Positions 3,919 to 22,307 of a DNA stretch of 41,686 nt are shown here, piece by piece (position 1 is the first letter of the stretch; every line of letters starts with the position of its first letter). Source of the DNA: Thermoguttaceae bacterium (lineage in GTDB: Bacteria > Planctomycetota > Planctomycetia > Pirellulales > Thermoguttaceae); contig JARKPK010000029.1 of the NCBI GenBank assembly GCA_029975295.1, positions 113,047 to 154,732 on the forward strand. The letters are read 5' to 3'. Made by a program: the position numbers and the translations under genes. The notes below the pieces were generated by a model. It saw nothing but the letters and a program-made list of their open reading frames with translations. It did no database searches and had not been told where the DNA came from.

Positions 3919-4108
3919 GTGCAACCGAGGAGCGCCCGAAGCCGACTTTTCGGAAGACGCTGGATCGTTCTTCTCGGTTGCGTTGCGGCAATCGACGAAC
4001 GCCGCGCAAGAGTGCGAAAAACGTTCGAAAGAGCAGATCACCGATGTCGTCCGCGCCCCATTGAAGGCGCGAACGCCGCCATCAGCGAACAACCCCAACG
4101 GTCCCCCA

Positions 4109-4972
4109 ATGAACGCCCCGAGCCCGAGCCGTCCGAACCTCTTGCGACTGGCGCTTGCCGCGCTGCCGGCGCTGGTTCGTTGCAGCGCGGTTTGGGCCGT
4201 GATTGTCGCCGGCGCGATCGCGCCGCTGGAAGCCTCGGCCCAAGAGAACGCCAACCAGCCGCTCACCATGAAGCTGCCCGACGGGCTTGCCGCCGGGCCC
4301 GAGCACTGGACCAGCCCCGAAGGGCTCAGCTCGTCGCTTCAAGTGATGCTGCTGATGACCGTGCTGAGCCTGGCGCCGGCGATCTTGCTGATGACCACCT
4401 GTTTTGTTCGAATCGTCGTGGTTCTCGGCCTGCTCCGGCAAGCGATCGGCACGCAACAACTGCCGCCCAGCCAGGTGATCACCGCGCTGGCGCTGTTCGT
4501 CACGTTGCTGGTGATGGCCCCTGTTTGGAAACAAGTCTATACCGACGGCGTGGCGCCGTACACCAACCGCGAGGTCTCGCTCGAACAGGCATGGGAGCAA
4601 GGCGTTCGGCCGATTCGCCGCTTCATGAGCATGCAGATCGAACGCGCGCAGAACAGCGACGACGTGTGGCTGCTCATGCAGTACGCACCGGCTCAGGAGC
4701 CGCCGAAAACCTACGACGACGTGCCGCTGACGGTCCTTTTGCCCGCCTACATGCTCAGCGAATTGAAAGTGGCGTTCCTCATCGGTTTTCAGATTTATCT
4801 GCCGTTTCTGATCCTCGACATGGTCGTGGCCAGCGTGATGGTTTCGATGGGCATGCTCATGCTTCCGCCGGTGCTCATCTCGCTGCCGTTCAAACTGTTG
4901 CTGTTCGTGCTTTGCGACGGCTGGCATCTGATCGTGGGCATGCTCATCGAGAGCATCGAGCCGTTCTCGTAG
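4109..4972 (+). CDS. fliP: FliP, flagellar export gate protein
   Basis: FliP forms the pentameric core of the membrane export gate with FliQ and FliR. The frame opens at 3983, but the ATG at 4109 is preferred because it puts a signal peptide directly at the N-terminus: [19 protein letters not shown], a hydrophobic core, then ASAQE. The mature part shows family landmarks: [20 protein letters not shown], then [19 protein letters not shown], then [20 protein letters not shown]. The last helices include [18 protein letters not shown] and a final segment ending in a short charged tail. At 287 residues it is slightly longer than E. coli FliP (245). It stands 190 bases after fliO and about 100 before fliQ, in standard order. 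Confidence 0.95.
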
Positions 4973-5068
4973 CCGCGGCGCGACAGCCGGTTGTGCGGCT
5001 ATGAGTCACGCAACGCTCCGGGGCAACACCGATCGGGTTCCAACGCATTCCTCCGCCGATTCTCGCTT

Positions 5069-5335
5069 ATGGACGCTCAAACAGCCGTGGATCTGGGCCG
5101 GCAGGCATTGTGGATGTCGCTGTTGATCGGCGCGCCGGTGCTGCTGGTCGGCCTGTTGGTCGGTCTGATCGTCGGTTTGTTGCAGGCATTGACTCAGGTT
5201 CAGGAACAAACTGTCGCCTTCGTGCCGAAATTGGCGGCAATGATCATCACCTTGGGATTGGCCCTGCCCTGGCTGATCCAACAGATGGTCCAATACTCGC
5301 AGGAACTGATCGGCGGAATCGCCGGCAGGCTCTGA
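5069..5335 (+). CDS. fliQ: FliQ, flagellar export gate protein
   Basis: FliQ is a two-helix membrane protein that wraps the FliP/FliR core of the export gate. The ATG at 5069 gives an 88-residue protein, matching the usual 89. The upstream in-frame ATG at 4991 would add 26 polar residues not typical of the family. It begins MDAQTAVDLGRQALWMSL, followed by a helix with repeated GLLVGLIVG and the conserved LLQALTQVQEQTVAFVPKL. The second helix is AMIITLGLALPWL. It is placed between fliP and fliR as usual. Nothing is odd except the 96-base spacer before it, which lacks a strong ribosome-binding site. Confidence 0.95.
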   Translation: MDAQTAVDLGRQALWMSLLIGAPVLLVGLLVGLIVGLLQALTQVQEQTVAFVPKLAAMIITLGLALPWLIQQMVQYSQELIGGIAGRL

Positions 5336-5462
5336 GCCGGTCGGCCCCGCCGCGAGCCGCCGGCGCCTCGGGCGGCATGGCTCGGCGCCTTGTCCGCCCC
5401 GTGCGATCGACCGCGTCATAGTGTACCGCCGCAACCCCCGAACACCGCCCACTCTGTAAGCC

Positions 5463-6287
5463 GTGAACGCGTTTCTGGCGCAACTGACCACTGAAAAGTT
5501 CCTGCTGTTCACGCTGGTGCTGACGCGTGTGACCGGATTGACGATGACTGCGCCGATCTACGGCGGCCGCGACGTGCCCGCCGTGGCTCGAGCGCTGATC
5601 TCCTTCGCTTTGGCGCTGCTGATTACGCCGATGCAATGGCACGTGTCGGTCGCCCCGCCGGGAAGCACGCTCGGCTACTTGGCGCTGGCGGCCGGCGAGT
5701 TGGTGATCGGCGTCAGCTTGGGTCTGGGCATCATGATCCTCTTCTACGGAATGCAACTGGCCGGCGAATTGGTCGCCCAAGTCGGCGGGCTGATGTTGGC
5801 CGACGTGTACGACCCGAGTTCGGAAACCACGGTGCCGCTCTTCTCGCGGTTTTTCTTTTTGGTGGCGGCCGCCGTCTTCGTATGCATCGGCGGACACCGC
5901 ATGGTGCTGGCGGGCCTGCTCGACACCTTTGCCGCCATCGAACCGGGCGGAATGGGAATGCCTGCCGACGTGGCCGACGCCTTCCTGCTGCTGCTGACCG
6001 AAAGCTTTTCGCTGGGCATTCGCGCCGCCGCCCCCACCGTGGCCGCGCTGCTTGTCGCCACGCTGGTGATGGGACTGATCGGCCGCACCCTGCCGCAATT
6101 GAACGTAATGGTGATGGGGTTCGGTCTGAACGCCATGCTCACTTTCGTCGCCTTAGGGTTGACCTTGGGCGCCGCCGTTTGGCTGCTCCACGACTACTTC
6201 CCGGCCGGACTGGAAACCATGCTGGCCGGGCTCGGCGCCGCCCCCGAGGGCAAGGGCGGCGCCGCTTGGCTTCCAGAAACGTATTGA
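5463..6287 (+). CDS. fliR: FliR, flagellar export gate protein
   Basis: FliR is the single copy subunit that completes the helical FliP/FliQ/FliR gate. The 274-residue protein starts with GTG at 5463 and has about six membrane segments. Typical stretches are FTLVLTRVTGLTMTAPIYGG near the start, VPAVARALISFALALLI, LGLGIMILFYGMQLAGELV and the late RTLPQLNVMVMGFGLNAML. Length is close to the usual 260. It is followed by flhB after 146 bases. The short Gly/Ala/Glu-rich C-terminus after the last helix appears variable. Assignment is secure. Confidence 0.94.
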   Translation: MNAFLAQLTTEKFLLFTLVLTRVTGLTMTAPIYGGRDVPAVARALISFALALLITPMQWHVSVAPPGSTLGYLALAAGELVIGVSLGLGIMILFYGMQLAGELVAQVGGLMLADVYDPSSETTVPLFSRFFFLVAAAVFVCIGGHRMVLAGLLDTFAAIEPGGMGMPADVADAFLLLLTESFSLGIRAAAPTVAALLVATLVMGLIGRTLPQLNVMVMGFGLNAMLTFVALGLTLGAAVWLLHDYFPAGLETMLAGLGAAPEGKGGAAWLPETY

Positions 6288-6433
6288 TTTTCGGAGAAGG
6301 CCCGGCGGTGCCTCGGGAATCGACATCCCGCCGACCGGTCCGGTTGCACGAATCTTCCGAAAGACAGCACGAACCCAGCCGCACAGCGGCCACCCTGCGG
6401 CAATAACCAAAATCGGTTTTCCGGAGACGATCG

Positions 6434-7519
6434 TTGGCCGATCTCGAAGGCGACAAGTCGCAAGAGGCAACCCCGCATCGCCGGCAACAGGCCCGCGAAG
6501 AAGGGCACGTTGCGCGCAGCCACGATCTGGCCTCGGCCGGGCTGCTGCTGGTGGGCTTGCTGGCGCTGTGGGGACTGAGCGGCGGGCTGTTCGACTACCT
6601 CGGCCGGATGACCCGCAGCCAGTTGGGCGGCGCGCCTTGGGTGCATGCCGATGTCCAGTTCGTCTCGGCCGCCTTTTGGCAGCATCTGGCCGCGTTGGCG
6701 CGGTTCGTCGGGCCGCTGCTCGGGCTGCTGTTGGTGGCCGGCGTGTTGGTGAATCTGCTGCAAACCGGTCTGCTCTTTCTGCCCGACAAGTTGATGCCCG
6801 ACGCCTCCCGCATTTCGCCCCTGCAAGGGTTCGGCCGCATCTTCTCGCTTCAGAACGTCGTTCGTTTGGGGTTCGGGCTATTTAAAGTCGCCCTGATCGG
6901 CGGCATCGCCTATGTCGCCGTCCGCCAGCGGAGCAACGAGTTGATGGCTCTGACGGCGCTGTCGGTCGGCGCTATCGCGCAAACCCTGCTCGAACTGCTT
7001 TTCTCTATCGCGATCAAAATCGCCCTGGCGCTGGTCGCACTGTCCGTGCTCGACATGATCTTCCAACGATGGAAATTCGAGCAAGACATCCGCATGACCC
7101 CGCAGGAAGTCCGCGAAGAGTTCAAAAACCTCGAAGGAAACCCGCAGGTCCTTGCCCGCCGAAAACAAGTGCAGCGCCAACTGGCGATGGGCCGGGTGTC
7201 AACGGCCGTGCCCAAGGCGGACGTGGTTGTCACCAACCCGACGGAGTTGGCCGTGGCGATCCAATACGACCCCGAAACTATGGCCGCGCCGATCGTCGTG
7301 GCCAAAGGGGCCGGCTCGGTCGCCGGACGCATCCGGCAGTTGGCCCTGGAACACGGCGTGCCGATCGTCGAGCGGAAACCGCTGGCACAAGCCCTCTTTC
7401 GCGAGGTCGAGGTGGGCAAGCCGATTCCGCACGACAAATATGCCGCCGTGGCCGAAGTGCTGGCCTACGTCTATCAGCTCAAGGGCAAAGAGATTCCCAC
7501 GCCCAAACAGGCCGCCTAA
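6434..7519 (+). CDS. flhB: FlhB, flagellar export switch protein with NPTE cleavage site
   Basis: FlhB regulates the change from rod/hook to filament export through its self-cleaving cytoplasmic domain. Translation begins at TTG 6434, giving the family-typical opening GDKSQEATPHRRQQAREEG. Four membrane segments lie at about 31-52, 90-115, 141-165 and 185-207, followed by the cytoplasmic domain from about 212 to 361. The autocleavage motif, normally Asn-Pro-Thr-His, is here N268-P269-T270-E271 (bases 7235-7246). Asn and Pro, the residues flanking the cut, are kept; His is replaced by Glu. The position agrees with Salmonella FlhB Asn269. Length, 361 residues, is normal. It ends the flagellar block; flhA does not follow. 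Assignment is secure, and the effect of Glu271 on cleavage is unknown. Confidence 0.95.
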   Translation: MADLEGDKSQEATPHRRQQAREEGHVARSHDLASAGLLLVGLLALWGLSGGLFDYLGRMTRSQLGGAPWVHADVQFVSAAFWQHLAALARFVGPLLGLLLVAGVLVNLLQTGLLFLPDKLMPDASRISPLQGFGRIFSLQNVVRLGFGLFKVALIGGIAYVAVRQRSNELMALTALSVGAIAQTLLELLFSIAIKIALALVALSVLDMIFQRWKFEQDIRMTPQEVREEFKNLEGNPQVLARRKQVQRQLAMGRVSTAVPKADVVVTNPTELAVAIQYDPETMAAPIVVAKGAGSVAGRIRQLALEHGVPIVERKPLAQALFREVEVGKPIPHDKYAAVAEVLAYVYQLKGKEIPTPKQAA

Positions 7520-15599: not shown

Positions 15600-16736
15600 C
15601 TACCGTTGAACTGGCCCGACTTGCTTCGGTCCGCAGTAGCTCAGCGCCAGCAAAGCGAAAGCGGTGGCCAAATTGGAATCGGATTCCATCCATCGAGGAT
15701 TCTTGTTCACCCACGAACCGTCGCTGCGTTGCCGCGACGCCAGCTCCTCCGTCAAGTCTTTGCGCCAGTCGTGTTTCACGCCGGCGGCGTCAACGATCTC
15801 GTCCTCGCCGAAAACATCGAGCGCCTTGGCGAACGTGTGATAGTAGTAATACAGACCCGCATCGCCCATGCCGGGATTGCTTCTCACGTCGTAGTTCTTG
15901 CCGATCCATTTGACGGCGGCTTTCACTCGCGGATCATCTTTCGTCAGTCCGGCGTAGATCATGCTTTTCAATCCCGAATAAGTCATCGACCCGTAGCTCC
16001 GCAACCCGCCCTCGGGCGATTCCCGCTCTTCGTCTTGACGGCTGACGACGCAAGTGTAGTAGAACCCGCCGTCGTTGATCTTGGCCGCGTAAGGCGTCGT
16101 GTTGTGCGGCGATTCGAGATTCTGACAGCGGGAGACGAACACCAACGCTTTCTTCAACGCTTCATCGTCGGGCCCGGCGCCGCACGACCGAAGCGCTTCG
16201 ACGAGAAACGCCGTATTCGAAAGATCCGGACGCGACTTTCCCCCGTAGCCGGCGCCGCCGTAGGAAAAGTCGGCTTGCTCTTTCCCCTTGCTTTCATCCG
16301 TTTGGACGCCGCGGATGAACTTCTCGCCGGCGGCAATCACTTTGTCGAATCGCCCGTTGCGATTCGCCTCACGAAAGCACACCAGCGCTACGCACGTCTC
16401 GTACGTCGAAATATGACTGCCCGGCGTATAGATTCCTCCGTTCTCTTGAACATACTTCTCCAAATACTCCAATGCCTTTGCCACGACAGGGTCGGCCACC
16501 TCGCGACCGTTGCGCAACATCCCCAATGCCGCCAACGCCGTTGGGCCGATTCCCATTTGCGGGCTGAGCGAGCCGTCGGGCGACTGCTTTGAAGACAAGT
16601 ACTCGATCGCTCGAGAAACAACCGTTTGGTGGAGTTCAGGCTTGGGACCGCACATTGGCGACTCCGCGGCCCGCCCCTCGCTCGCCGTGATCGCAACACC
16701 AATCAATACCATCAGCAGACACATGGGAAAACGCAT
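15600..16736 (-). CDS. secreted prenyltransferase/squalene-cyclase-like toroid protein
   Basis: The 378-residue protein has a signal peptide at 1-24 (core CLLMVLIGVAITAS, then GRAAES). It is followed by repeated helical units of the alpha/alpha-toroid type found in prenyltransferases and squalene oxidocyclases. QW-like motifs appear at the start (SKQSPDGSLSP) and end (SRQRSDGSWVNKNPRW), with FSYGGAGYGGKSRPDLSNT in the middle. A terpene cyclase DxDD acid motif was not seen, and export argues against terpene chemistry, so a binding or structural role is more likely. The ATG at 16736 follows AGGAGG. It is 68 bases upstream of the DUF1559 gene and looks like the first gene of the operon that ends with the large permease. 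Function unknown. Confidence 0.85.
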   Translation of the reverse strand: MRFPMCLLMVLIGVAITASEGRAAESPMCGPKPELHQTVVSRAIEYLSSKQSPDGSLSPQMGIGPTALAALGMLRNGREVADPVVAKALEYLEKYVQENGGIYTPGSHISTYETCVALVCFREANRNGRFDKVIAAGEKFIRGVQTDESKGKEQADFSYGGAGYGGKSRPDLSNTAFLVEALRSCGAGPDDEALKKALVFVSRCQNLESPHNTTPYAAKINDGGFYYTCVVSRQDEERESPEGGLRSYGSMTYSGLKSMIYAGLTKDDPRVKAAVKWIGKNYDVRSNPGMGDAGLYYYYHTFAKALDVFGEDEIVDAAGVKHDWRKDLTEELASRQRSDGSWVNKNPRWMESDSNLATAFALLALSYCGPKQVGPVQR

Positions 16737-17374
16737 CGATCATCCTCCTATTCGGTTCGTGCATTGGCAAAGACAGCGGCGCCTAACGCGGCCCGACCGG
16801 CGCAATCGCAATGGCAAAAAGGGCTTTGGCTCGGGTACATCGCCTGCTGTGCGAAAACCGATAGTTTCGCCGCGAAAGCGAACGATGGTCGCTGCGCTCA
16901 CAGCCGGCTCTTGGGCGCAAGAACCGCCGCACGCCAGAGTCAGCAAATCATGTGCCAACCGGCCAAGCAGCGTTCGCCGTCGAGCGCATGATGGCCAGCC
17001 CTTCGGCGAAAATCATGCGGGACCGTCGCAAGAGCGAGATTTTATCGGCCCAACGGCAGACCGCCCGGCAAGTCGATCGGCGCAGCATCGCTGTCGAATG
17101 AATCGACAAGCCGCGGCTTTTCGCAGATGCCCGAGTCCCGCCCGTCCGTCGGCTCGATCCTTCCAAACGGCCTTGTCGAACAATTCGTTCTTTCTACCGC
17201 CCGTTGCGATAGCGATCGTCGTGCCGACACGACAAATAGGCGAAAAGCGCCCATTGCTTCGACAAGGCCCTCCCAAACTGGGAACGGAAGACTGAACGTG
17301 GCAGAAGCGTTGCCGCGCCATCGAGGCAAACGACAAGCATGAGAAACTGAGAAACCTTGCCTCAGCCGGAAGGC
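16737..17374. other. 638-base gap upstream of the toroid/ABC operon
   Basis: Several overlapping open frames cross this stretch without domain-like content. It should contain the promoter of the minus-strand operon starting at 16736, but I found no pair of good -35 and -10 hexamers. No hairpin or repeat stands out. Confidence 0.5.
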
Positions 17375-18313
17375 TTATTGCGGGGCCAGGGCCAGTTGGC
17401 GAAGGGCTTCGAGCACCGAAAGCAGGTCGTCGCGCGCGATATCGGACCAGCCCGAAACACGGCGGCTGACAATCGCCAGCTTCATCGCTTCGAAGGCCTC
17501 GGCCACATCGGGCGGCAGAGGCGGCAGGCTTTCAAAAGGCCGAAGAGCCGGGGCATCGGCCGCGGCGGCCGTCGTGGCGGCCGCCGCGCTGGAAGCCGTC
17601 GCCGGCCCATCGGAAGCCTGATCGGTCGCTGGGCGGTCGTCGAGATCGTCGAACTCTTCCGACCATTCGGCCGGCTCCGATTCGTCGTTTGCCGCGGGCC
17701 GAACTTGCTGAAGATGCCCGTCGCCTTCCGATTCGTCGCTCGATGTCCACGGCTCGGGTTCGGCGGGCTGGACCTCGACGGTTCGCCCCAGCGCCTCGGC
17801 CCGTCGCTCGCGCATCTGACTGATCGACCAGGCGTTCTGCACCGCCCCTTCGAGCCACATCTCGGCGTCGTCCCAATCCAAGGCGGCCTGAAAGTGGCTC
17901 CAGTACAGGCCGCGGTAGCCCGAGAACACCTGCCCAAACCGCTCCCAAACGCGGCGCAATCGCCCCACGTGCTGCGAGGTGATGCCGCCCACGCGCGACG
18001 CCCATGCCTCGTCGCTGTAGCCGGTGGCAGGCATGCCGGCGGCGATCATCGCTTCGCGCCATTCGGCGATGATCCGCCCTTTGTGCCAATTGGTTTGGCT
18101 GATCAGCCGATTCCAACGATCGACATAGGGGCGGCTGGCCAACTCGAACGAGCCGGACGAATCGTCCCAATCGCCCGCGCCGGACAACCCCGGCTCCGTG
18201 GCCGCGGCCGCCGAAGGGGTTTCCCAGGGCGCATCGCCACGGGCGTCGGCCTGGGAGACGATGCCGTCCCGGTGCGGCATTTGCGACTCGTCCAAAGGGT
18301 CTCGGTCGAACAT
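17375..18313 (-). CDS. orphan protein with a DUF1016_N-like core domain
   Basis: The 312-residue protein starts at ATG 18313, preferred over 18334 because GAGAGGAAG lies about seven bases upstream. The first 60 residues are polar. The core at about 62-175 contains ISQTNWHKGRIIAEWRE, GITSQHVGRLRRVWERF, YRGLYWSHFQAALDWDDAE and QNAWSISQMRERR. The order and spacing of these four elements recall the N-terminal domain of DUF1016/YhcG proteins, where a WSHY-type helix and a WSVRQLER-type helix occur; that domain is helical and thought to bind DNA. The PDDEXK nuclease domain that normally follows is absent. Instead come an acidic Glu/Asp/Ala-rich linker (about 185-260) and a short helical C-terminus (about 265-312). 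A DNA-binding or complex-forming role is inference. No operon partner is evident. Confidence 0.75.
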   Translation of the reverse strand: MFDRDPLDESQMPHRDGIVSQADARGDAPWETPSAAAATEPGLSGAGDWDDSSGSFELASRPYVDRWNRLISQTNWHKGRIIAEWREAMIAAGMPATGYSDEAWASRVGGITSQHVGRLRRVWERFGQVFSGYRGLYWSHFQAALDWDDAEMWLEGAVQNAWSISQMRERRAEALGRTVEVQPAEPEPWTSSDESEGDGHLQQVRPAANDESEPAEWSEEFDDLDDRPATDQASDGPATASSAAAATTAAAADAPALRPFESLPPLPPDVAEAFEAMKLAIVSRRVSGWSDIARDDLLSVLEALRQLALAPQ

Positions 18314-18910
18314 CGGCTTCCTCTCCGCAAGCAATGGACTGCCAAGCGACCAGCGGACCTCGGGCCACAGGTCTTTGGTTTCAACGGCGGCCGCTGCAAC
18401 AGGCGGCCCGGCGGCCAGACCCGGCGCTGATACCGAAGCAGCTTACCAACAAGGCGGCCAACCGCTCCAGATGCCCACCGCCGGCGCGGCGAGGCGCGGG
18501 CAAGCCGGAGCCGAATTTCCCCGGAAGTTGTTCGCCTCGCGTTTCGAGAAAACGCCCGCGACGATCGGCGTCCCTGGAGCCCGCCGTTGGGGAAAAGCTG
18601 TTGGCGGGTCGGCGAGCGCGCCAACGAGTTCGTCGCGACAATCCGCCAGGCCCCAACCGTTTGCAGCAATGTGTTCCGCCGCTTGCCGCGGCAAACACCA
18701 TCAAAGCCCCCAACCGATGTTCGAGCGGCGGCCGCCTCCGCAAATCATGCGACGCAGGCCGGCCATCAGATATTGTTGCACCGACTGGGCAAACCGTGCC
18801 GATCGGAACGGACCGTCCCCACGGCGCAAACATCCCGATGAATCGAACGATCCATCGATCGGCCGATCGGCGGCGCAACCAGAAGGGCAGTGGCTACTGC
18901 GGTGCAGTGG
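18314..18910. other. 597-base gap between the anti-sigma gene end and the orphan gene
   Basis: Frames here are Arg/Pro/Ala-rich shadows without domain content. The stretch holds the upstream region of the DUF1016_N-like gene and, at its right end, one copy of a 17-base tandem duplication. I recognise no promoter or terminator. Confidence 0.5.
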
Positions 18911-18921
18911 CTACTGCGGTG
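18888..18921. repeat. 17-base tandem duplication across the anti-sigma stop codon
   Basis: CAGTGGCTACTGCGGTG occurs twice in direct succession (18888-18904 and 18905-18921). The inner copy contains the stop codon and the last codons of the anti-sigma gene; the outer copy lies just beyond it. It looks like a recent slippage or duplication event that left the protein end intact. Confidence 0.9.
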
Positions 18922-21562
18922 CAGAATTGGGGGCAGGATCGTCGCGAGTCTCGCCGCCGTTGGCTTCGCCCGGCGGTGCAGCGCGTTCGGCATCGGGCGA
19001 TGCGACGGCATCGGCCGGCGCGGCTGCGGGCGCGAAGCCTTGGGGCCGGGCTGCCGCCGCTTGCACGGCCGGCACCGTCCGCAAAACAAAGAGCACTCGC
19101 TGCTGCCGGGCGACGTGCGGCAGAGCCATCTGGGAGCCGGGCCGAACGAGCGACGAGTCTCGGCCCGCCCCGTCGTCGCCTTGTTTGGCCTTCTCGACGA
19201 GCTCGACCGCATCGGGCGCCGCGCCGAGCGGCTGGCCGGCCTCGCGGCGAACCAACGCCTGCCGAGAACCATCGTGCAACAGGGCGTCGGCCGCATCCGG
19301 CTGCGCCGACGCCGAGCCCCCTTCCGCCGGTTCTGCAACCGCCTTGCCGCCCTGCGCCGGCGCCGCGGCCATTTGATCTTTCCAAGTATGTCCGGCAACT
19401 TGGTTCTGGGCGTCGAGACGCGCGACACGATGGGCGCGACCCAAAACGACTTGACCGCCCGCGGGGCCCTCATTCGATGCCCCCTGCTCGGCCGCGCGGC
19501 CGAACTGCGGAATGCGATCGGCTTGCGGCTTCGACTCCGGCCATTCCCTCTCCGCTCGATCGGCCTTTTGTTGCAATCGCTCGTTCTCGGCGGTTGCCGC
19601 GTTGTACTCCCCGGCCAACTGCCGCGACGCAGCGCCCGCGCCCGACAACGGCCCCTCCACTCCCGGCGCAGACTTCGGCAGATGTTCGGCCGGCATGTCC
19701 GGCGAGCGGATTGCTCTGCCCTCCTCGGGCTGCGCCGGCAGCCCGTCGGCCATCAGTCTTTTCTGCCCGCCGCCGGAAATCGCCTCGCCCGGCGGCGGCG
19801 ACGGCAACGCCCGGGTTTGCGCGAGCTGCCCCACCGGCCGACCCCGTTGCTGGGCCGCAAAGTTCTGCGTCCCCCGAGCCGGCTCGACAGCCACCGACAC
19901 GACCGATTGGTGCGCGTCGGTCAAGTCGGCGATGAGGTTCTGGATTTGCGAAGCCTGCGCCTCGACATAGACCAGTTCAATCTCAGGCGAAGGCGGCGCC
20001 TTCAGCGCGCGCAACGCCGCTCCCTCCGGCACACCACCGAACGCCTGGCCCTCTGACTTGGCCAACGAGGGACGCTGGGCGATCGGGCTCGCCGCGGGAA
20101 GATCTCCCGCCTCGGGTTCGATGGCTGCCGGCGGTGCGCTGGCTGTCGGCGATGCGGCGGCGGTTCCCTTCATCGCCCTGGCGACGCTTCCGCGGCCCTC
20201 ACCATTCCCAGGCGGCACCCCCCCTTGGTCGGACGGATCGGCCGCACCGCGCAGCCCGCCCGGTTGCAACGGTTCGCGAAAAGCCATCTGGTTCTCTTTG
20301 GTTTTCTGGTCGGCCGCCCCGCGCCCGTCCGTATCGGAATCGGCCACGGCCGGCGCCGCTTTGTCGCGAGTGGTCGGCGCATCCGATCGACCTGCTGAAG
20401 CGTCGGCGTCGGTCGCCCGCCACAGGGGATTGAGGCTGTTCCAGCCGCTGGCACCCGCCAGGGCCGGATCGGGCTCCCAGAGAATGTAGTTCTGGGCCAA
20501 GAGCTGGCCGAAGACGTCGTTTCTCGCGGCGTCGGCGGCGATGTCAACGTGAACGACGAGAATTCCTTCTTCCGCCGCTTCCGAGTCCGCGGTCGCCTCT
20601 TCCATCAACGCATCAACCGACGCAATGCCCGAGCGCCGGCCATCCTCGGGCGCGCGGGCGGCTGTCGTTGGCGCACCGTCGGACCTCAGGTCATCCGCAG
20701 CCGGCAACGGCGCAGCAGCCATGGCCGCCGGGGGCGGCATAGCCGCGCCCACATTACCAGCCCCGCCGCCCGCGCTGCCAACGGCCATCGACCGGCGTTC
20801 GACCGGGCGCTGCGGGGCGTGCGCGGCGCCGTAAGCCATCGGCTCGCCGGGGTCGGCCGCGCCGTTTCGCGGCTTGGCCGCGGCAGACCCGACATTCAAC
20901 CGTTCGCTCTCGTCGTTGGCTTTGCGAGCGACGGCCTCGTCGCCCGAAGCAACGGGACCGATCATGGCCGGTTTGGGCGCAGGCACGGCCGCGCCGGCCT
21001 CGCTGGTCGAAGTGATCTCGGACGAAGCGGCGTCGCCGCGGGCGCCGACGGAGGCGGCATCAACTCCAACGCTGTTGGCCGCAACCCGATTCGATCCCAT
21101 GGCACCCACCGCCGCATCGCCGCCGGCCGGGGCGTGCTTGAGCGGATCGGTCGCGTTGACGATTTCGCGCTGATGCGGCGCGACGCCAACGCGGCCCAAG
21201 TCGGTCAGCACGATCCACAGGGCCAACACGGCGGCCACGGCCGGCCAGAACAGGGCACGGCCGGTCAGTCGCTTTCGCAACTGCGTCCAGAGCGAGCCGG
21301 CTGTGCCGGTCGAATCCGCCGCCGCCTCGCCGCCGGTAAGGATCTGCCGCTGCGCCGCCCGAATCACTCGATCGCTCAAGTCGGTTTCGAGCCGGGCCGG
21401 CGGCAGCGATTGCAACGCGCCGCTGAGCGCGCGCAGCTCGTCGAGCAGTTGCCGGGCCTGCGGTTGCGACGCCAGCAGCTTCTCGATCTTCGCTTGCTCC
21501 TCGGCAGTGACTTCACCGTCGAGGTACGCGCTGAGCAGTTCGTCGTTGATCCACTCGTTCAT
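18911..21562 (-). CDS. very large membrane-anchored anti-sigma factor
   Basis: The protein probably holds the ECF sigma factor encoded just upstream at the membrane. From ATG 21562 it has 883 residues. The N-terminal about 60 residues (INDELLSAYLDGEVTAEE, then KLLASQPQARQLLDELRAL) match the helical anti-sigma domain but lack the His-x3-Cys-x2-Cys zinc motif. One membrane helix follows at about 103-122 (FWPAVAAVLALWIVL). About 760 outer residues remain, mostly Ala/Pro/Gly/Gln-rich. They are punctuated by ordered islands: ILVVHVDIAADAARNDVFGQ, ELVYVEAQASQIQNLIADL with VVSVAVEP, and QQRVLFVLRTVPA near the end. Typical anti-sigma factors are 200-300 residues. The frame opens at 21607, but the later ATG starts at the domain. 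The outer part may sense envelope state; that is inference. Confidence 0.82.
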   Translation of the reverse strand: MNEWINDELLSAYLDGEVTAEEQAKIEKLLASQPQARQLLDELRALSGALQSLPPARLETDLSDRVIRAAQRQILTGGEAAADSTGTAGSLWTQLRKRLTGRALFWPAVAAVLALWIVLTDLGRVGVAPHQREIVNATDPLKHAPAGGDAAVGAMGSNRVAANSVGVDAASVGARGDAASSEITSTSEAGAAVPAPKPAMIGPVASGDEAVARKANDESERLNVGSAAAKPRNGAADPGEPMAYGAAHAPQRPVERRSMAVGSAGGGAGNVGAAMPPPAAMAAAPLPAADDLRSDGAPTTAARAPEDGRRSGIASVDALMEEATADSEAAEEGILVVHVDIAADAARNDVFGQLLAQNYILWEPDPALAGASGWNSLNPLWRATDADASAGRSDAPTTRDKAAPAVADSDTDGRGAADQKTKENQMAFREPLQPGGLRGAADPSDQGGVPPGNGEGRGSVARAMKGTAAASPTASAPPAAIEPEAGDLPAASPIAQRPSLAKSEGQAFGGVPEGAALRALKAPPSPEIELVYVEAQASQIQNLIADLTDAHQSVVSVAVEPARGTQNFAAQQRGRPVGQLAQTRALPSPPPGEAISGGGQKRLMADGLPAQPEEGRAIRSPDMPAEHLPKSAPGVEGPLSGAGAASRQLAGEYNAATAENERLQQKADRAEREWPESKPQADRIPQFGRAAEQGASNEGPAGGQVVLGRAHRVARLDAQNQVAGHTWKDQMAAAPAQGGKAVAEPAEGGSASAQPDAADALLHDGSRQALVRREAGQPLGAAPDAVELVEKAKQGDDGAGRDSSLVRPGSQMALPHVARQQRVLFVLRTVPAVQAAAARPQGFAPAAAPADAVASPDAERAAPPGEANGGETRDDPAPNSAPQ

Positions 21563-21737
21563 CGTCTCACCAGCCCTGTGCCGACGAGCGCCCTTAGGCC
21601 AACCCATTCGGCTCGGTTCGCGCCACTCCTATATCCCGTTTGCCTCGTGATGTTCTTGCCTTCGCCCTGTTGCCTTCGGCCCGATTCGGCCGCCCCCAAA
21701 AATAGTTCTTGCTCCGACGACGCCCGTGCCGAGCGGG

Positions 21738-22307
21738 TCAGTCGATCCTTTGTTTCGCGGCCAATTGTTCTTGAAGCAATTGGCGCATTTGCAAACGGGC
21801 GCGATGCAGTCGGCTGCGCACCGTTCCGATCGGCACGTCGAGTATTTCGGCAATCGTCTCGTAACAGCAGCCGTCCATTTCTCGGAGCACCAGCACGGCG
21901 CGGTGATCTTCGTCGAGCCGCTCAATCGCCTCGCGCACCTGCCGCTGCTGCTCGCGCCGCTCGAGCCGGTCGGTCGGGCCATCGCCCCGATCGATCACCT
22001 CGGACAGATCGCCCGGGCCGCCCGGCGCTCGCACGGGAGCGTACCGGCGGCTCCTCTTTCGGTCGATCGCCGCGTGGAACGCAATCCGATAAAGCCATGT
22101 GTAGAAAGCGCTTTTGCCCTCGAAACTATCCAGTTTGAGATAGGCCTGAACAAACGCCTCCTGCACTACGTCTTCAGCGTCTTCGGAATTCCCAACGACG
22201 TGAAAAACCACGTTATAGAGCCGATTTTGGTACTTGCGCACCAAGAGCCCGAACGCGGCCGACCGGCCCGCCAATGTCTGTTCGATCAATTCGGCGTCGT
22301 CGTTCAC
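21738..22307 (-). CDS. ECF-family RNA polymerase sigma factor
   Basis: The 189-residue protein has both conserved sigma regions of the extracytoplasmic-function group. Region 2 is at about 20-95 (FGLLVRKYQNRLYNVVFHVV, then NSEDAEDVVQEAFVQAYLKL and FYTWLYRIAFHAAIDRKR). Region 4 is at about 130-180 (LDEDHRAVLVLREMDGCCYE, then IAEILDVPIGTVRSRLHRAR). The linker between them carries a short Pro/Gly-rich stretch. Translation begins at GTG 22307. It is 175 bases upstream of the anti-sigma gene on the same strand, the standard arrangement. A GGAAC-17-CGTC element precedes it, suggesting that it transcribes its own gene. The closest described relatives are RpoE-like proteins; the regulon is unknown. 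Confidence 0.95.
   Translation of the reverse strand: MNDDAELIEQTLAGRSAAFGLLVRKYQNRLYNVVFHVVGNSEDAEDVVQEAFVQAYLKLDSFEGKSAFYTWLYRIAFHAAIDRKRSRRYAPVRAPGGPGDLSEVIDRGDGPTDRLERREQQRQVREAIERLDEDHRAVLVLREMDGCCYETIAEILDVPIGTVRSRLHRARLQMRQLLQEQLAAKQRID

Follow-up and report, generated by a model that had tools for sequence, protein, structure and literature searches.

The window, by which we mean the whole stretch of 41,686 nucleotides that was analyzed, encodes on its minus strand a 312-residue protein whose gene is a core gene of Pirellulales and usually follows a rare 18-bp element of a kind also found at dnaA and at the probable origin of replication. The conservation of the gene, the fold match of its product, the element, and the recurrence of the element at dnaA and the probable oriC were computed here, and the suggested link of the gene to replication, drawn from sequence evidence, is new. 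At a probability of roughly 0.55, we favor a DNA-binding regulator or nucleoid protein that has a ParB/Noc-like helix-turn-helix but no recognized CTPase, and whose gene is tied to DnaA through the upstream element. Among the papers listed by literature searches for DUF1016, for ParB, DnaA boxes and oriC of Planctomycetes, for signature proteins, and for DnaA of Pirellulales, none was seen to deal with a protein or element of this kind. The main text of PMC10632474 mentions neither DnaA nor ParB. The features discussed below are as follows.

17375..18313, minus strand: coding sequence, 312 amino acids plus stop (ATG at 18313, stop at 17377-17375; from the open reading frame listing and homologues)
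17786..18160, minus strand: N-terminal helical domain, residues ~52-176, with a predicted ParB/Noc-like fold and related to DUF1016_N (AlphaFold, VIA, hhalign)
17936..17977, minus strand: putative recognition helix of the helix-turn-helix, residues 113-126, SQHVGRLRRVWERF (model helix 62-75; invariant residues)
17567..17746, minus strand: predicted disordered acidic linker, residues ~190-249 (pLDDT <50; low conservation)
17387..17512, minus strand: C-terminal two-helix unit, residues ~268-309 (model helices 217-235 and 243-258; conservation)
18588..18605, minus strand: conserved tandem pair of DnaA-box-like units, GCCAACAGCTTTTCCCCA (24.0 bits; 275 bp ahead of the ATG)
18911..21607, minus strand: anti-sigma-factor-like protein, upstream neighbor (zf-HC2 at 20.8 bits, just under the cut-off of 22.2)
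21738..22307, minus strand: ECF sigma factor, upstream neighbor (Pfam Sigma70_r2, 4.6e-20)

A core gene of Pirellulales

The 312-residue frame is overlapped by a longer plus-strand open reading frame (17357-18430), and is taken as the coding one because its protein is conserved across genomes; it is a real gene and the conserved frame of the pair. The exact start codon is uncertain because the conserved core begins only near residue 55, and residues 1-51 are poorly conserved in the family alignment. A first-pass annotation had called the protein an orphan while proposing a survey of planctomycete homologues, and that survey overturns the label. At E <= 0.001, a homologue occurs in 50 of 60 genomes (the window's own counted), including 36 of the 43 with at least 90% completeness and at most 5% contamination. 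Each gene-bearing genome yielded one match, except four with two pieces of one open reading frame, and the 59 named contigs that carry homologues belong mostly to Planctomycetaceae, Pirellulales and Pirellulaceae MAGs, plus Adhaeretor mobilis. The gene is also present in 11 of 11 additional Pirellulales genomes that were fetched later, and a phylum-wide profile search matched 20 of 294 genomes. A second family of the class, labelled f21, holds weaker homologues, both among the matches listed (16, beyond which f21 genomes without a homologue may exist) and in 8 of 8 genomes fetched later. Ten of the 60 genomes have no credited homologue, a single match at E 0.23 not being counted. For one of these, G005, a copy of the element lies 232 bp from a contig end, and the gene may be cut off there rather than absent; three others in which no homologue was found (G012, G027 and G038) are 98-99% complete.

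An identity cut at 80% reduced 83 distinct homologue sequences to 81, and the resulting 81-row alignment contains 26 invariant columns, every one within the N-terminal domain. The four elements that the first-pass annotation had singled out (TNWHKGRII, QHVGRLRRVWERF, LYWSHFQAAL and AWSISQMRERR) stand in the order it gave, and all contain invariant residues: N24, W25 and G28 in the first, Q63, H64, G66, R67, L68, R69 and R70 in the second, W87 and H89 in the third, and W111 and R120 in the fourth (numbered on the trimmed protein; full-protein numbers are higher by 51). Given these invariant columns, the four elements are not due to chance.

An operon with the sigma/anti-sigma pair was considered as a functional link and rejected. 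Among loci with enough upstream sequence, a same-strand ECF sigma factor is present in only 23 of 50 and an anti-sigma factor in 17 of 51, so that their presence upstream is not taken as functional linkage. A small CDGSH protein occurs in 23 of 54 eligible loci, its identity confirmed by Pfam in L073; no CDGSH copy belonging to that cluster occurs in the window. Proximity to the origin was also dropped as a general rule: by arithmetic on match coordinates, the gene lies within ~13% of genome length of dnaN in seven Pirellulales genomes, but ~18-50% of genome length away from it in 12 single-contig f21 genomes. Elsewhere in the window, the next gene downstream encodes a squalene-cyclase-repeat-like protein (15600-16736, minus strand; SQHop_cyclase_C, 1.4e-12), and consecutive plus-strand open reading frames at 3983-7519 resemble, from a reading of the sequence, the flagellar/type III export proteins FliP, FliR and FlhB.

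Predicted fold and distant relatives

The AlphaFold model of the protein has a mean pLDDT of 80.8, with block means of 84-97 across residues 52-181. An acidic linker and a short helical C-terminus had been read in place of a nuclease by the first-pass annotation, and the model agrees: pLDDT is below 50 over most of residues 190-249, as for a disordered linker, and two confident helices follow. These two C-terminal helices carry the conserved pattern LP.Dl.eAfe.fKlaI..Hk...W and probably dimerize the protein. Within the N-terminal domain, residues 113-126 form one helix, preceded by a short helix (the DEAWASRV region), in what the model presents as a helix-turn-helix. The second helix of this unit is the most conserved element of the family and is our putative recognition helix.

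Foldseek places ParB/Noc DNA-binding domains at ranks 1-8 among solved structures, with probabilities of 0.97-1.00 and weak E-values (0.02-0.24; best 2.3e-2). VIA re-alignment, which was confined to the chains proposed by Foldseek, returned ParB/Noc/Spo0J chains in all of its top 12 rows. The best was Caulobacter ParB (6t1f_D; Z 11.6, 111 residues, rmsd 3.0), and Z was 11.5 for Thermus Spo0J (1vz0), 10.2 for 6y93, 7.9 for KorB (1r71) and 5.6 for SopB. Because VIA warns that helical models with Z under ~13 may share only a common arrangement, and because Raf1 chains score 8.2, the fold link is based on the consistent top rows together with the helix-turn-helix, and not on Z alone. The predicted fold of the N-terminal domain is closest to the ParB/Noc DNA-binding domains. 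The likeness to ParB, Noc and KorB spans the predicted fold of residues 52-176 and the helix-turn-helix of the model, whereas the protein differs from ParB and Noc in having no recognized ParBc CTPase domain, no match to the HTH_ParB profile and a different C-terminus. Pfam credibly recognizes no family in the window protein. A ParBc CTPase domain was found neither in its full length nor in any of the 81 members, which had been trimmed to begin near residue 52, and the protein should therefore bind DNA specifically but not slide along it as a CTP clamp. HTH_ParB (PF17762) is not among the 24 Pfam families matched by the 81 members, and hhalign comparison of the family with planctomycete HTH_ParB sequences (26 of 30 loci used, two left out by hand and two by script) gave a probability of 0.2%, that is, no sequence-profile similarity. 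Since HTH_ParB matches occur at other loci in 59 of the 60 genomes, the protein supplements ParB rather than replacing it.

The first-pass annotation had likened the protein to the DUF1016 N-terminal domain and proposed a profile comparison, which upholds the likeness as distant homology. The window protein has no Pfam match to DUF1016_N even at E 10; with a threshold of E <= 1, 34 of the 81 members match PF17761, the lowest E-value being 8.2e-4. When nine members were rescanned, four matched at 12-18 bits (L088 at 18.4 bits, E 0.0024), and the curated cut-off of 32.8 bits was reached neither by them nor by the window protein. Aligned by hhalign with 26 planctomycete DUF1016_N sequences (from 30 loci, four left out by hand), the family reached 92.2% (E 5.7e-7) versus 0.2% for the reversed alignment. 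We consider the two to be distant homologues only, with the landmarks W..G..I, L.WSH and WS in common. In YhcG-type proteins DUF1016_N precedes a PDDEXK nuclease, and DUF1016 appears in a list of PD-(D/E)XK families (PMC1913061); in the 312-residue protein no nuclease is recognized, as PDDEXK families are absent from the 24 Pfam families matched by the 81 members and only two helices follow the linker. Occurrence differs as well: DUF1016_N exceeds its cut-off in 31 of 98 genomes of the class, whereas the gene for the 312-residue protein is widely kept.

Nor is DUF1016_N the sole relative. With E <= 0.1 as the limit, 50 of the 81 members match LmbU regulators (NF038070), the strongest at 5.9e-4, and the window protein itself is below threshold (14.1 bits; cut-off 125). 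In the LmbU study, the authors aligned LmbU with structures of Spo0J (ParB) and reported homodimers (PMC6510168). The actinomycete LmbU genes have a genomic context unlike that of the gene described here, and the LmbU binding site given in the same study, CGCCGGCG, is unlike the element upstream of it (PMC6510168). In addition, hhalign relates DUF1016_N to the ParB helix-turn-helix at 75%. The simplest reading of these profile comparisons is that DUF1016_N, LmbU and the present family may all fall within one ParB-like helix-turn-helix superfamily. Further searches gave no match at E <= 0.001 in a viral fold library, two matches of no meaning in the PDB by sequence (E 0.16 and 0.95), weak scattered matches in PHROGs, and no relative in a pattern-based scan of viral contigs.

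An upstream element that recurs at dnaA1 and dnaA2

Motif discovery in the 450 bp that precede the conserved core in 82 homologues (one of the 83 upstreams being too short) yielded atCgACAnGTTTTCCcCa with an EM log-likelihood of 719, versus 145-147 for the same free model on three shuffled sets. The element is 18 bp long, close to RTCRACAnGTTWTCCMC, and forms an isolated conserved island with flanking columns at or below 0.35 bit. In a matrix scan of the gene's strand, it was found upstream of 75 of the 83 homologues at 10 bits or more and of 69 at 15 bits or more; the remaining eight are without it. The median distance from the element to the chosen start is 253 bp, and the copy in the window is the sole site of at least 12 bits in the entire stretch. 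The matrix was trained on these target-side sites, and later scans read both strands. Of the sites that reach 15 bits in 777 kb of loci, 51 precede the gene, each on the same strand as the gene (45 plus six duplicate-locus sites directly upstream of the gene that were first classed as 'other'), and four lie elsewhere; the reversed matrix gave five sites in the same sequence. Pirellulales genomes fetched after the matrix had been built, some of which share genera with the training set, have the element in 11 of 11 cases (19.3-25.3 bits), or in 12 of 13 with the inclusion of G262, which has it, and G331 (L093), which does not.

The element reads as two DnaA-box-like units in direct repeat with an 11-bp period. 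The classical DnaA box is TTATCCACA, from which the first unit departs by A or G instead of C. At position 15 (counted from 0, in the second box), C occupies 43 of 69 target-side copies, and A occupies 34 of 37 copies at dnaA1 and 23 of 33 at dnaA2. This difference may reflect weaker or paralogue-specific binding at the target gene, and is what speaks most strongly against a plain DnaA box there; exact TTWTCCACA has no occurrence in 81 target upstreams. Two other interpretations were discarded. For a palindromic operator, spaced-dyad counts gave scattered weak matches only, and a model constrained to palindromes scored 302 (90 and 85 on two shuffled sets), far under the 719 of the free model. 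For TCGACA as a sigma70 -35 hexamer, the downstream column profile contains no conserved -10.

In f21, one locus (L103) has an upstream site of 20.1 bits with three repeats, two (L104 and L106) have weaker repeats at 12.0 bits, and the other 13 of 16 stay below 11; none of eight more f21 genomes has 12 bits upstream of the gene. L330 contains a site of 18.2 bits as well, but this one follows the core start and is on the opposite strand, and so is not an upstream element. A separate f21 upstream motif proved to be a tRNA-Cys gene (ARAGORN found it in each of five loci run), which in most f21 homologues precedes the gene by ~370-600 bp (for example in L096, L100, L107, L327 and L334).

Most Pirellulales genomes searched have two DnaA homologues (loci L202-L314). 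The long dnaA1 is present in at least 59 of 60 genomes and the shorter dnaA2, its match usually beginning at profile position ~110, in at least 54; both sets were picked by hand among the matches listed, and some stretches end at contig ends (L213, L217 and L256). At 15 bits or more, 37 of 59 genomes have the element upstream of dnaA1, always on the gene's strand, with 36 of these 37 sites positioned 254-645 bp upstream of the dnaA1 match. The dnaA2 region has it in 33 of 54 genomes, 31 of them within ~400 bp downstream of dnaA2, and the reversed matrix gave no site in either region. The exact pattern TCRACANGTTWTCCMC has 37 matches in 28 of the 60 genomes (0-2 per genome), and its reverse has one. 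A hand tally from coordinates assigns 12 of the 37 to the region upstream of the 312-residue protein's gene, seven to that upstream of dnaA1, six to that directly downstream of dnaA2, and 12 to other places, where 11 loci viewed by eye had no common gene.

Several features mark the sequence that follows dnaA2. Adjacent dnaN genes are found in G042, G059, G041, G051, G048 and G049, and five loci have dnaN-like open reading frames on the far side of the dnaA2 sites. DnaA-box-like 9-mers (one mismatch) downstream of dnaA2 number 69, versus 8 in shuffles, and TAC-type runs, which we take to be DnaA-trio-like repeats, are succeeded by AT-rich sequence in 4 of 8 stretches viewed (L298, L262, L284 and L275 as examples). 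The stretch between dnaA2 and dnaN is probably oriC.

Candidate binders of the element and the role of the protein

Because the gene is usually preceded by an element of the kind seen at dnaA and at the probable origin, it may be connected with the replication cycle. Genomes in which the gene is undetected keep the element, at the level of the matrix, at dnaA1 (6 of 10) and dnaA2 (6 of 8), much as gene-bearing genomes do (31 of 49 and 27 of 46). Some of these ten genomes may be incomplete, yet the near-complete G012, G027 and G038 all keep the element at dnaA1. Its retention without the gene makes DnaA a likelier binder than the 312-residue protein. As we picture the sequence of events, DnaA would bind the tandem box pair upstream of the gene and thereby adjust its expression with the replication cycle, and the protein would in turn regulate genes or organize the nucleoid by binding DNA.

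It seems improbable that the protein is an ordinary transcription factor with no role in replication, for which the boxes would be a passive DnaA-titration or reset locus (datA/DARS-like) or a means of slight tuning. The variable distance of the element upstream (10th-90th percentile 195-367 bp) is consistent with such a role, as is the frequent ECF sigma neighbor, which would fit a regulon for stress or for another purpose; however, the element stays with the gene across genera while the upstream genes change. We give still less credence to the element being the operator of the protein itself, which would then repress its own gene, bind upstream of dnaA1 and at oriC, and itself regulate initiation, the likeness to DnaA boxes being coincidental or competitive. 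The predicted fold is DNA-binding-like and autoregulation is common, as illustrated by LmbU, which, according to the study cited, binds its own promoter when freed of its inhibitory N-terminus (PMC6510168). Recurrence of the element at dnaA and oriC would be compatible with this scheme, and the exact pattern is rarer in genomes without the gene (3 of 10) than with it (25 of 50), partly because the gene's own site adds to the latter count. This scheme conflicts, however, with the retention of the element where the gene is undetected, and with its form, a direct repeat of 11 bp and not a palindrome. In addition, f21 has the gene mostly without the element there, and a tandem pair is visible by eye in the dnaN-upstream region of one f21 locus (L315). 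Finally, the first-pass annotation had offered a DNA-binding regulator, which the ParB/Noc-like predicted fold supports, or the leftover of a defense nuclease; a degenerate DUF1016/YhcG-type remnant with only its N-terminal domain kept would account for the profile-profile similarity to DUF1016_N, but is very unlikely given the 26 invariant columns in 81 rows, the wide one-copy occurrence of the gene, the lack of any nuclease family among the matches of the 81 members, and the lack of a viral relative in the pattern-based scan of viral contigs.

For the favored reading, a ParB/Noc-like regulator or nucleoid protein with a DnaA-linked gene, a broader role can be put forward tentatively. Planctomycetes divide without FtsZ (PMC12283558), and dnaA1, the dnaA2-dnaN origin and the gene described here could conceivably constitute a Pirellulales DnaA circuit, in which a CTPase-free ParB/Noc-like protein would couple initiation to chromosome organization or to FtsZ-less budding division. 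A gene that combines a predicted DNA-binding fold with a precise 18-bp element common to dnaA and the probable origin bears on how replication, segregation and budding are coupled in planctomycetes, and the element provides a handle on oriC and the two DnaA paralogues of Pirellulales.
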